This document shows positions 7,335 to 19,284 of a DNA stretch of 19,323 nucleotides, in pieces. The translations under genes were made by a program, and so were the position numbers. Location of the stretch: NCBI GenBank assembly GCA_031259795.1, contig JAIRLA010000266.1, positions 1-19,323 on the forward strand. The letters run 5' to 3'. The number at the start of each line of letters is the position of its first letter. Positions within the stretch are counted from its first letter, which is position 1. The stretch is from Azoarcus sp. (GTDB taxonomy: Bacteria; Pseudomonadota; Gammaproteobacteria; Burkholderiales; Rhodocyclaceae). The notes beneath the pieces are model-generated. The model saw only the letters and a program-made list of their open reading frames with translations. It had not been told where the DNA came from and did not search any database.

Positions 7335-8048
7335 TTACGGGATCACCGCATGAAACAGCGGCCCCCAAGGCCCCGGCTCGCCCTTGGCGTTCTCGAAGCG
7401 GACGCTGAAATACGCCGTCTTGCCGCTGTCGGTCTGGTCGAAGTCGAAGAGTTCGAGGTGGCGGCGGGTGAAGCGGGAGTGGGGGAGTTCCTTGCCGGTG
7501 GCGGGGATCTTCAGGAGTTCGCGCTTTTCGCCGGTGGCCGCTTCGACGCTGGCGCCGCCCGGGGGGTAGATACCGTAATAGATACGGTACCCATAGTCAC
7601 TGTCGTGCGGGTCGACGGGGGAGTTGGGTTCGCGGTGCAGGTGCAGTTCGAGTTGGTGCGCGGCGGGGTAGCTGACTTCGGCTTCGGCCTGCGCGACGGG
7701 CGGGGGAACGGGGGTGGGTTTGGTGTCTTTCGGTTTGAGGCCGAGGGAGACGATGTCGGTTTCGGTCAGCGGCGGCAGCAGGAAGTAGTGCGCTTTGAGG
7801 AAGCGCATTTTGTCGACCATGGCCTTGAAGGCGACGCTGCATTGCTGGGCGCTGAGGGTGCTGCGCGCGGGGGGCTGGTTGGCGGCCAGGGCGGTCTCGG
7901 CGGCGGTTGTAAGCGTTTTTAACGCTGTCATTTCCGCCGCGGGGATGTTCCAGGCGGTGGCCTTGGCGGTGGTGATGATGGTTTGCCAGAGTTTCGAGAA
8001 GTTGATCTGCTCCTCGCGCTTGTGGGGGAGCCAGTCTTTTGTGGTCAT
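7335..8048 (-). CDS. Conserved protein of unknown function (237 aa)
   Basis: It begins MTTKDWLPHKREEQINFSKL. The N-terminal half is helical (residues 10-90, ending MRFLKAHYFLLPPLTETDIV); a Pro-rich hinge follows (KPKDTKPTPVPPPVAQAE, 106-122); the C-terminal half looks like an Ig/Fn3-type beta domain (SDYGYRIYYGIYPPGGA at 150-166 and GKTAYFSVRFENAKGEPGPW at 209-228). There is no signal peptide or membrane segment. I recall similar DWLP-starting hypothetical proteins in unrelated bacteria (spirochaetes among them), which suggests horizontal spread, but no function is known to me. Start ATG 8048 is supported by CAGGAGA at 8054-8060. The frame continues upstream in phase to a GTG at 8312 through the tandem repeat, so a longer form is possible. 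A near-consensus promoter lies at 8403-8431. Confidence 0.8.
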   Translation of the reverse strand: MTTKDWLPHKREEQINFSKLWQTIITTAKATAWNIPAAEMTALKTLTTAAETALAANQPPARSTLSAQQCSVAFKAMVDKMRFLKAHYFLLPPLTETDIVSLGLKPKDTKPTPVPPPVAQAEAEVSYPAAHQLELHLHREPNSPVDPHDSDYGYRIYYGIYPPGGASVEAATGEKRELLKIPATGKELPHSRFTRRHLELFDFDQTDSGKTAYFSVRFENAKGEPGPWGPLFHAVIP

Positions 8049-8064
8049 GGGCGTCTCCTGAGGG

Positions 8065-8274
8065 TGCTCGGTTGTATGAATGCGTTGCTCGGTTGTATGA
8101 ATGCGTTGCTCGGTTGTATGAATGCGCTGCTCGGTTGTATGAATGCGCTGCTCGGTTGTATGAATGCGCTGCCCGGTTGTATGAATGCGCTGCCCGGTTG
8201 TATGAATGCGTTGCCCGGTTGTATGAATGCGCTGCCCGGTTGTATGAATGCGCTGCCCGGTTGTATGAATGCGC
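8065..8274. repeat. Ten-copy 21-bp tandem repeat in the leader of the unknown gene
   Basis: Ten head-to-tail 21-bp units without spacers. Each has the core GGTTGTATGAATGCG, preceded by TGCTC in units 1-5 (8065-8169) and TGCCC in units 6-10 (8170-8274), and ending in T (units 1, 2, 7) or C. A degenerate eleventh unit follows at 8275-8295. No indels occur. Because 21 is a multiple of three, each open frame gives a heptapeptide: on the minus strand RIHTTEQ/RIHTTGQ, AFIQPSN/AFIQPGS or HSYNRAT; on the plus strand GCMNALL/GCMNALP or LYECAAR. Only one plus frame is closed. The array lies between the promoter at 8403-8431 and the start of the 237-aa gene, so it is transcribed as leader. Confidence 0.97.
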
Positions 8275-8297
8275 GCCTCGTTTGCACAAACGCGCGC
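8271..8297. other. Hairpin abutting the promoter-proximal end of the 21-bp array
   Basis: GCGCG (8271-8275) pairs with CGCGC (8293-8297), and CGTTT (8279-8283) with AAACG (8288-8292) around a four-base loop, with a three-base bulge. It covers the degenerate eleventh unit and would fold in the leader RNA immediately 5' of the repeats. No T-run, so not a terminator. Confidence 0.45.
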
Positions 8298-8402
8298 CGC
8301 CCCCGCCCGCACGCGGGGCGCTCTACCATGAATCGTGCCGCGATGGTGTTCTTTTTCATCGTGAATGTCGTGCGGAAGTCACAGGGCGGTGGATTTGCGG
8401 TG

Positions 8403-8431
8403 ATAGTATATGCACGGCATGGGGATGTCAA
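8403..8431 (-). promoter_or_regulatory. Near-consensus sigma70 promoter for the 237-aa gene
   Basis: On the minus strand TTGACA (8431 to 8426), a 17-nt spacer, then TACTAT (8408 to 8403). This is a perfect -35 and a 5/6 -10 at ideal spacing. Transcription would start near 8396 and give a leader of about 350 nt through the 21-bp array to ATG 8048. It is the best promoter match seen in the window. Confidence 0.75.
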
Positions 8432-8483
8432 CATGTTATGGATAGCGGAAGCGCGGGTGTCGTTTTCATGCTTTTTTTATTAC

Positions 8484-8514
8484 GGCGTCGCCGCGCTCCT
8501 CGCAATGACGAGGG
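8484..8514 (-). repeat. REP-like dispersed repeat, copy 2
   Basis: GGCGTCGCCGCGCTCCTCGC followed by AATGACGAGG: the inverted form of CCTCGTCATTGCGAGGAGCG, lacking the GGCAATCC end. Confidence 0.75.
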
Positions 8515-8569
8515 GAGGGGACTGTCGCGGCGACGAGCGCCTTGCCGGAACTCCGTCCCTTTTTTTATT

Positions 8570-8651
8570 CAGCGGCGCTGCGCGCCGAATGGTTGAAAGC
8601 CCTCTCCCGGCCTTCGGCCACCCTCTCGCCCGCCAAGCGGGGGAGGGAAGG
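8570..8651 (+). repeat. Composite dispersed repeat, copy A
   Basis: CAGCGGCGCTGCGCGCCG, then a CCCTCTCCC block, a GGCC-TTCG-GGCC-type hairpin and GCCAAGCGGGGGAGGGAAGG. The same string of blocks recurs at 18831-18911 with about 85-90% identity by eye. The inner palindromes would fold as tetraloop hairpins. Confidence 0.85.
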
Positions 8652-8723: not shown

Positions 8724-8930
8724 CTATTGGAATAGGTTCTTGGCCGGCATGGCAATTGATCGGCAATATGGATGGAAGTCTACTGGATAATAGCGCCGCA
8801 ACCACTTGCGCCCGGTCTTGCGGTCAATGCCGTACTGCCGGCACAGGGCGCTCAGGTTCGCCCCTTCCTGATCCGCAAATGATATAAGCCCTTGCTTCAG
8901 TATCATCACATCCCTCGCTTTCCAGGCCAT
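8724..8930 (-). pseudogene. Truncated IS481-type transposase, N-terminal fragment
   Basis: A 68-aa frame from ATG 8930 with a strong GGAGGAAGGG Shine-Dalgarno. MAWKARDVMILKQGLISFAD followed by LSALCRQYGIDRKTGRKWLRRY is the N-terminal helix-turn-helix of IS481-like transposases (compare the common MPWKE... SELCRRYGISRKTGYKW pattern). After LRRY, around residue 48, similarity ends and the frame runs into unrelated sequence (YPVDFHPYCRS). The integrase core with the DDE triad is absent, so this is a dead remnant. An in-frame extension upstream to 9098 is not family-like. The family call rests on motif memory; another HTH transposase family such as IS3 orfA is the main alternative. Confidence 0.65.
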
Positions 8931-8979
8931 TTTCCCTTCCTCCAGAAACACATGAAGGAAGGATGACGATTGGGCGGGA

Positions 8980-9027
8980 CGTGGCCGTGCACTTGGGGAC
9001 GATATCCCCGGGCGGTACACGGCCACG
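8980..9027. repeat. Long hairpin upstream of the transposase remnant
   Basis: CGTGGCCGTG (8980-8989) pairs exactly with CACGGCCACG (9018-9027), and an inner GGGGA (8995-8999) with TCCCC (9005-9009). It lies 50 nt before the transposase start and may contain the terminal inverted repeat of the IS (TGTACCGCCCGGGG read on the minus strand from 9018). No second copy was found here to prove an IS end. Confidence 0.5.
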
Positions 9028-9096
9028 ATGGGGTTCGAACGGAGCATTGTCTCCAGACTGCGTGGTTGACGAGCGTCGATCCAACAGGAGCTGTTC

Positions 9097-9528
9097 ATGA
9101 TTCCAGCTTTGCTGCGCGCTTACCGGGCCACGGCTTATTGCGTATTCTTGCCCGTGGGCGGGATCGTTCTGCGTTGCGGGCGAAGAGCGCCGCGGCTGGA
9201 TGGGTGGCTGAGGGCGGAAGGGTTGACGCGCTGGTGCGTGCTCACGGCCTGGAATCCGGCTTCGCGGCGGCTCGGCGCGGCGGAGAACCGCCGCCGCCAG
9301 GAGGCGCTGCGCCAGCGGTTGCGGGCGCGCGGCTATCGCTTGTTTTGCGGGGAAAACCACGCCGACGCACAGGACTGGCCTGTCGAGGAGACGCTTTTCG
9401 TCCCCGGACTCGACCGCGCCGCCGCCCGCGCACTGATGCGCGGGCACGGGCAGAACGCCTTCCTGTGGGGCGCGCGCGGCAAGCCCGCTCGCCTGTGCTG
9501 GCTCTCCGGCCTCAGATCTCGTCGCTGA
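9097..9528 (+). CDS. DUF3293 domain-containing protein
   Basis: A 143-aa protein covering the whole DUF3293 domain: LLRAYRATAYCVFLP, LDGWLRAEGLTRWCVLTAWN followed by PASRRLGAAENRRRQEALRQ, the GYRLFCGEN strand, WPVEETLFVPGLDRAAARAL, and GQNAFLWGARGKPARLCWL. These are the conserved blocks as I know them; the family is small, cytoplasmic and functionally uncharacterised. AGGAG at 9085-9089 precedes ATG 9097 by 7 nt. The last 17 bp overlap the 3' end of the convergent cyclase gene, which constrains both C-termini. The IS remnant lies just upstream on the other strand. Confidence 0.88.
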   Translation: MIPALLRAYRATAYCVFLPVGGIVLRCGRRAPRLDGWLRAEGLTRWCVLTAWNPASRRLGAAENRRRQEALRQRLRARGYRLFCGENHADAQDWPVEETLFVPGLDRAAARALMRGHGQNAFLWGARGKPARLCWLSGLRSRR

Positions 9529-19164: not shown

Positions 19165-19233
19165 TCAGCGGCACTGCGCGCCGGTTGAAACGAACTGGAT
19201 TGCCACGTCGCTGCGCTCCTCGCAATGACGAGG
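19165..19233 (-). repeat. 69-bp repeat arm 2, inverted relative to arm 1
   Basis: TCAGCGGCACTGCGCGCCGG, a short link, AACTGGATTGCCACGTCG, then CTGCGCTCCTCGCAATGACG and AGG. The arms are separated by 54 bp of unrelated, more AT-rich sequence, so the whole 19042-19233 block could fold as one long cruciform or RNA hairpin. Confidence 0.9.
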
Positions 19234-19244
19234 TTGGGAAGGCT

Positions 19245-19284
19245 TTTGCAATGACGAGGGGGGGCGGTTCTCGCAATGACGAGT
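19245..19284 (-). repeat. Two partial REP-like copies
   Basis: TTGCAATGACGAGGG (19247-19260) and CTCGCAATGACGAG (19270-19283) are inverted half-elements following arm 2, carrying only the CGTCATTGCGAG end of the repeat. Confidence 0.7.

Follow-up and report, generated by a model that had tools for sequence, protein, structure and literature searches.

The window, by which we mean the whole 19,323-nucleotide stretch of the Azoarcus sp. contig JAIRLA010000266.1 analyzed here, carries on its minus strand a gene for a 237-aa protein, an array of 21-bp repeats 5' of this gene and a promoter-like site upstream of the array (Table 1). TRF reports a single array with period 21, 10.0 copies, 97% matches and 0 indels, which agrees with the exact units given in the preliminary description, and the unit listing reproduces the two blocks named there, TGCTC-type in units 1-5 and TGCCC-type in units 6-10, with a last base that also varies between T and C. 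The near-consensus promoter placed before the array in the same description was recovered as well. In the 2-kb region of the window, three promoter-like sites were found vs 0.7 in shuffles. The lag-21 score of the array is 185.4, the 460 shuffles made of upstream regions of the family score at most 10.7, and a chance origin is excluded. The array is also not of the CRISPR type, since it has no spacers and its units are contiguous. The source genome comprises 2.4 Mb in 308 contigs and is 78% complete, and a DNA search of it returned no second copy of the 381-bp array region.

Table 1. Positions of features in the window and of the short repeats found upstream of other family genes
Feature	Position	Strand	Basis
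Ten spacerless 21-bp repeats; sense unit (A/G)CGCATTCATACAACCG(A/G)GCA	8065..8274	-	TRF
Degenerate outer unit(s) of the window array, one or two	8275..8321 (end approximate)	-	lag-21 segment, -273..-16 relative to ATG
Promoter-like site TTGACA-17 bp-TACTAT, upstream of array	8403..8431	-	10/12 consensus matches
Shine-Dalgarno-like AGGAG, 6 bp before ATG 8048	8055..8059	-	read from sequence
237-aa family gene (MTTKDWLP...)	7335..8048	-	homology searches, AlphaFold2 model
129-aa open frame through array, possible leader ORF; its TGA overlaps the gene's ATG (ATGA)	8045..8434	-	
Perfect 7-bp repeats, 9-16 copies (L082, L089, L138, L142, L160, L162, L165, L166, L262, L264, L267, L274)	~350-700 bp upstream		

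Just upstream of the promoter-like site lies a 124-aa ORF (8724-9098, minus strand) that looks by eye like an IS remnant and includes the helix-turn-helix-like stretch SALCRQYGIDRKTGRKWLRRY. A CTCGCAATGACGAGG-type repeat has copies at 8498-8514 and 19219-19283 of the window, and similar tandem versions (TCATTGCGAAAGCC) are present in the related loci L012, L028 and L031.

The protein family and its distribution

Proteins of the family to which the 237-aa product belongs consist of a helical N-terminal part and a beta-rich C-terminal part. In the AlphaFold2 model of the product (mean pLDDT 92.1, pTM 0.57), helices lie within residues 11-101 and mainly strands within residues 121-235, and by sequence pattern we take the C-terminal part to be FN3-like. 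The product has no match in Pfam, and comparison of the family protein with Pfam, NCBIfam, PHROGs, PADLOC and PDB sequences gave no convincing relative. Pattern scans of viral contigs with family alignments found no viral relatives, tblastn with the L193 product found no phage relatives and tblastn with the L021 product found no plasmid relatives; on the basis of these searches, a viral or plasmid origin of the family was rejected.

Six matches to the 237-aa protein, fragments included, are present in the genome of the window, and a protein search of 149 relatives gave seven that match, one of which (G109) is weak and outside the genus. With the family profile, 7 of 21 genomes of the genus matched (up to 15 matches each), and among 398 genomes drawn from the phylum the window's own genome was the only one to do so. 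A scan of genome contigs revealed 44 family loci labeled Azoarcus or Zoogloeaceae, Treponema, Spirochaetaceae or Spirochaetia, Planctomycetaceae and, in one case, Phycisphaerales; the isolate codes of these records resemble what is presumably a termite-gut MAG series. A 28-sequence profile matched 126 of 195 genomes in the family of one Treponema genome and 7 of 294 in the planctomycete phylum, as well as all 19 genomes reached via the scan loci (up to 32 matches each among the matches listed), the last rate being partly circular because these genomes were reached through family loci. The protein family exposed by these searches is mosaic and has no name, and in Treponema-labeled bacteria its listed matches number as many as about thirty in one genome.

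The N- and C-terminal halves of family proteins can be taken, from their sequences, to recombine. One beta-rich C-terminal half is found joined to two helical N-terminal types (L012, L015 and L019 vs L006, L030 and L008, L009). In three Treponema loci (L073, L077 and L081), the family domain stands in frame at the C-terminus of what is, by eye, a methyl-accepting chemotaxis protein, a fusion that suggests a cytoplasmic role. In addition, 27-bp tandem repeats, by eye of the GGxGxD (RTX-like) coding kind, adjoin family genes at L008, L011 and L016 in the genus of the window.

Period and position of the arrays

Upstream of the first homologues, TRF detected 21-bp arrays with unrelated units. The preliminary description had proposed looking for the window's unit before homologues; arrays are present there, but the sequence of their units is mostly different. 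To the 5' regions used for counting belong 60 that were picked by hand from the matches listed, by match start and upstream DNA, before their repeats were examined, and a further 20, from the Treponema family search, that were chosen in the same way, not every listed match being used. Fragments without an N-terminus, 5' regions below 150 bp (L021, L170 and L181), the duplicates L154 and L155 and arrays whose best lag is a 7-bp repeat were left out, and 4-, 7- and 8-bp repeats were masked in the count of 110 regions. For the coding and dyad tests described below, a lag-21 score cut-off of 25 gave 64 arrays, or 63 for tests that required three or more units; later tests used a cut-off of 16 with 4-, 7- and 8-bp repeats masked, which gave 91 arrays, or 89 without duplicates.

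A tandem array is present in 92 of the 110 family 5' regions and absent from 18. Within the range of 9-60, the best period was 21 in 53 regions and 42 in 39, and no other period occurred. Adjacent units (at most 8 differing sites) differ by 3112 substitutions over 741 comparisons, and 671 of 675 unit-to-unit spacings are exactly 21 bp, the exceptions being two of 20, one of 22 and one of 23 (arrays were defined at lag 21, with steps of 17-25 allowed); steps of 18 or 24 bp were not seen among the 675. Since 21 bp corresponds to two turns of B-DNA, the two-helical-turn unit proposed from the window proves to be a strikingly invariant trait. Among the 20 regions from the Treponema family search, 16 score at least 25 at lag 21 or 42 outside 7-bp repeats, by reading. 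The planctomycete homologues are remote (best non-G538 profile E-value 2.8e-12); a lag-21 score of at least 24 was obtained at 9 of 15 such loci, two of the 15 having at most 61 bp upstream, and four of these homologues (L276, L279, L280 and L284) have no 21-bp array.

The arrays favor one side of one kind of gene. Where enough flank was available, a 5' array was found in 20 of 29 genes and a 3' signal, a weak one, in 1 of 29. Among other genes in 626 kb of array-bearing genomes, only 3 of 400 are preceded by a 21-bp array in their 5' intergenic stretch, and one of these three arrays is weak; this control relied on coarse ORF-based gene calling, which can hide arrays inside long spurious ORFs, and covered the intergenic stretch up to 600 bp only, compared with the full 600 bp in the family count. 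In a congener without the family, no 21-bp array precedes any of 82 genes. The association is strong but not exclusive, because at least 10 further arrays occur away from family hits, some of them, by reading, between convergent genes.

Copy number, which the preliminary description had proposed to compare among related genomes, differs among orthologues: ten core units in the window, two degenerate units at L008, one at L011 and none at L014, a comparison between species rather than strains. The genomes are nearly all drafts, mostly MAGs, with many family genes at contig ends, and copy numbers of short-read arrays may be wrong, while the period should hold. The same description had named relatives that lack the array and are expressed normally as evidence against a role for it; the 18 family genes without an array supply the first half of this argument.

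A second layer of short perfect repeats is present 334-700 bp upstream in 16 of the 110 family 5' regions, 14 of them with 7-bp units in 7-16 copies, and the 626 kb background contains two loci with such repeats, one of which belongs to a family gene. In Treponema cases with the left flank available (L082, L165, L262 and L264), the 7-bp repeat lies, by eye, in a short ATGCTTTTGAAACC-like frame between two facing sigma-70-like promoters. Because this layer resembles a classical contingency tract, the family may be phase-variable.

Unit sequences and the 5' module

Most family genes carry their own unrelated repeat unit. Best-rotation identity among 2701 unit pairs, drawn from 66 arrays of the family, of which two are duplicates, and from 8 further arrays, centers on the null (mean 9.1 of 21, with 99.9% at 13). 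A match of at least 15 of 21, on either strand, is reached by 22 pairs, which include the two duplicates as well as orthologues and second sites within one genome. Even where the protein bodies are at least 70% identical (29 gene pairs), the unit match is at most 12, no better than chance, in 19. Units of the TTGTCTnnAGACAA type, together with MxQR(S/T)DW protein starts, occur in Azoarcus (L009), Zoogloeaceae (L190) and the Treponema family (L257).

The array and the first codons look like a single swappable 5' module, because genes with similar units share their first codons. First-five-residue identity is 0.71 at a unit match of at least 16 (n=22) vs 0.28 at a match of at most 12, a difference found in every band of body identity, and the body identity of the 22 high-unit-match pairs runs from 0.3 up (mean 0.58 vs 0.26). 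Over all pairs, the relation is slight: the partial Spearman coefficients of unit similarity are 0.053 with the first residues and 0.075 with the body, and the Mantel correlations, 0.108 and 0.074, are tiny as well. Second-site arrays whose unit is the same as that of their own genome's gene-linked array were found in G014:C78 (L217, 6303-6471) and in G006:C48 (L300), and a similar second-site pair is present in G539 (L183 and L209, 12991-13367). The copy at L300 ends just after ATG-DWLPS, and arrays as free mobile elements were rejected on the evidence of this one second site, which could be followed to its end and proved to be a truncated copy of the 5' module.

Autoregulation, in which the linked protein would bind its own unit, is not favored: 19 of the 29 similar-body pairs differ in their units, the 22 unit-sharing pairs share their first five residues with bodies from 0.3 up, and the N-terminal 110 residues are nearly neutral (mean charge +0.7, n=93). 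Two counterpoints are the above-average bodies of these 22 pairs and the all-pairs correlations, which give the first residues no advantage over the body.

Readings of the array

By computation, the array is a noncoding tract 5' of the gene, with an exact 21-bp period and self-complementarity on both strands. The arrays are more self-complementary than column-permuted arrays, to an equal degree on the two strands, which favors a role at the level of DNA over a fold in the sense RNA. The symmetry is best described as one dyad per unit with arms of 6-7 bp and a 2-bp center; a perfect 6-2-6 dyad, CGTTTGCACAAACG, lies at 8279-8292 inside the degenerate outer units of the window array. Significant dyads are confined to 25 of 63 arrays, and the window array is not among them (p=0.62). 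Their center falls between bases in 22 of the 25, a count helped by the scoring (6 pairs needed there, 7 otherwise), and within arrays, compensatory changes show no excess over chance (16 vs 12.5, sd 2.8). Predicted curvature, calculated with dinucleotide parameters, is 5.67 vs 4.49 in permuted arrays (p=0.016; 8/63 arrays); DNA curvature beyond the period's own contribution is weak and was set aside as an explanation.

The placement of the array between promoter and gene, claimed for the window, finds a parallel in the family, where the 200 bp before arrays contain 32 promoter-like sites in the sense and 22 in the antisense direction vs 10.5 expected; between array and ATG they are not enriched (11 vs 7.9 expected). 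Of 89 genes, 29 have a site within 250 bp upstream of the array, and in 55 both this stretch and the gap between array and ATG are free of such sites. This suggests that the array is often preceded by a promoter-like site, in which case it would be transcribed as a leader, and computation likewise suggests that the array and first codons are exchanged between protein bodies.

Three readings compete with a DNA-level role. A coding tract of heptapeptide repeats, translated either as part of the gene product or as a separate upstream peptide, is suggested by the seven codons in 21 bp and by the window itself, where the gene frame and four others are open through the array (five of six, as originally noted, when counted over 12 units, degenerate outer ones included) and the array-spanning frame ends in the ATGA overlap, which would permit translational coupling in this copy. 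In the family, codon-phase substitution bias at p<=0.05 occurs in 1 of 64 arrays (Fisher 0.985), open sense frames stand at 1.39 vs 1.27 expected (p=0.12), neither strand has an excess of open frames, stops are not depleted, the gene frame is open through the array in 10 of 64, and 18- and 24-bp steps are missing. The length-variable coding tract of the preliminary description is therefore discarded as a general reading, for lack of codon phase and stop avoidance, and we consider coding highly improbable; since the family as a whole shows no excess, the open frames of the window are most likely an accident of composition. A leader acting as RNA, in which a row of hairpins conserved in structure and not in sequence would control mRNA stability, elongation or translation, would account for the promoter-like sites upstream and for a sense MFE of -30.6 kcal/mol per 100 nt vs -23.1 in column-permuted versions of 86 arrays, and unrelated yet self-complementary units resemble covariation between paralogues. 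Against it, the antisense strand is equally structured (-30.3 vs -23.4 when permuted; sense vs antisense p=0.71), so that the sense-strand excess of structure expected of a structured leader RNA or riboswitch is lacking; G.U is no commoner than A.C in broken dyad pairs (95 vs 91, p=0.83), the 2-bp center allows an RNA loop of just 2 nt if the inner pair stays closed, hairpins in a row do not depend on an exact 21-nt pitch, and positions 7900-8600 of the window have no Rfam match at the gathering threshold. Sense-strand hairpins were rejected for want of a strand preference; the regulatory RNA leader put forward earlier thus loses its support, and we regard an RNA-level role as distinctly unlikely.

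A passive satellite is somewhat easier to defend, although still unlikely. Hairpin-mediated slippage and in-register recombination would add and remove its units, which would hitch-hike with duplicated and exchanged 5' modules without any role in expression. Self-complementarity on both strands is what slippage favors, and the higher-order periods of 42 and 63 bp, the variation in copy number and unit state among the orthologues listed above, the arrays away from family hits and the truncated second-site module are all in keeping with it. It leaves unexplained why the spacing stays exact despite so many substitutions, why one period is common to different unit sequences, and why arrays are associated with the 5' side of this family (92/110 vs 3/400).

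The reading that we prefer, tentatively and at somewhat less than even confidence, is a transcribed, noncoding and helically phased cis-regulatory 5' module of a multicopy family in which period and symmetry are conserved. Identical sites would be stacked along a single helical face, where a dimeric or polymerizing DNA-binding factor would recognize them as DNA; alternatively, RNA polymerase itself might be the reader, with the array as a phased obstacle. The array would set the output of the upstream promoter, with copy number as a tuning dial, and selection would keep the spacing and the dyad symmetry and leave the unit sequence free to turn over. A cluster of protein-binding sites, with a putative binding factor, is the best of the three possibilities raised in the preliminary description; the 19 of 29 similar-body pairs with unlike units are hard to reconcile with one conserved sequence-specific factor. 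More speculatively, and with less confidence than in the preceding reading, such geometric modules, defined by a two-turn pitch and dyads with no conserved sequence, might serve as exchangeable cassettes in Azoarcus, Treponema and Planctomycetes, some of them with the 7-bp layer, so that switching and tuning would be separated.

Plasmid iterons and par centromere repeats are direct repeats in helical register that lie upstream and have a sequence private to each replicon. The arrays described here would differ from them in that the linked protein, for which the sequence comparisons above gave no convincing relative, is not recognized as a replication or partition protein, and in that family matches reach about thirty per genome among those listed. 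In the promoters of hmw1A and hmw2A of Haemophilus influenzae, tandem heptamers similarly precede a gene, and more repeats generally mean less transcript (PMC2424069); as far as the abstract goes, that system comprises a 7-bp unit and two related genes, whereas the present one comprises 21-bp, mutually unrelated units and a many-member family. Copy number differing between relatives, as in hmwA, was found here at the species level (10, 2, 1 and 0). The minisatellite-MITE BrickBuilt of Porphyromonas gingivalis, for which promoter activity is reported, resembles our arrays in being spacerless, intergenic, of similar unit length and present in many copies per genome, but its abstract describes a 23-bp unit of one shared sequence with inverted-repeat ends (PMC4596501), whereas the arrays here have 21-bp, mostly unrelated units and are tied to one gene family: the 2701 unit pairs reveal no shared unit, and all 92 arrays have a period of 21 or 42. 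The TAACTGA repeats found in Beggiatoaceae, Cyanobacteria and Bacteroidetes, direct repeats for which horizontal transfer is suspected, share the upstream position near start codons and the spread over distant phyla; according to the abstract, they are a single heptamer before functionally unrelated genes (PMC4679880), whereas our arrays combine a fixed period with a varying sequence and a preference for one family. An invariant 7-bp unit is likewise absent from the arrays kept, in which lag-7 identity is 0.13-0.40; three regions that reach 1.0 contain distinct 7-bp repeats and were excluded.

As their abstracts describe them, hmwA, BrickBuilt and TAACTGA all lack the combination seen here of a constant period, a freely varying sequence and attachment to a single gene family, and searches of an open-access library brought up no earlier report of such arrays; the novelty rests on the observed pattern and this literature search, not on a proven mechanism. 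Bacterial repeat arrays are usually identified from a common sequence or attributed to slippage at the individual locus. The 92 arrays have one length to the base and almost no common sequence, and they lie on one side of one family in three phyla, a pattern that known slippage hardly accounts for and that would indicate a regulatory code based on DNA geometry. They also form a natural series in unit sequence, copy number and presence or absence, on which the setting of expression by repeats can be tested. We also observed an array of about 32 copies of a 22-bp unit before an unrelated Treponema gene, in the intergenic region at L197 (8288-9006).
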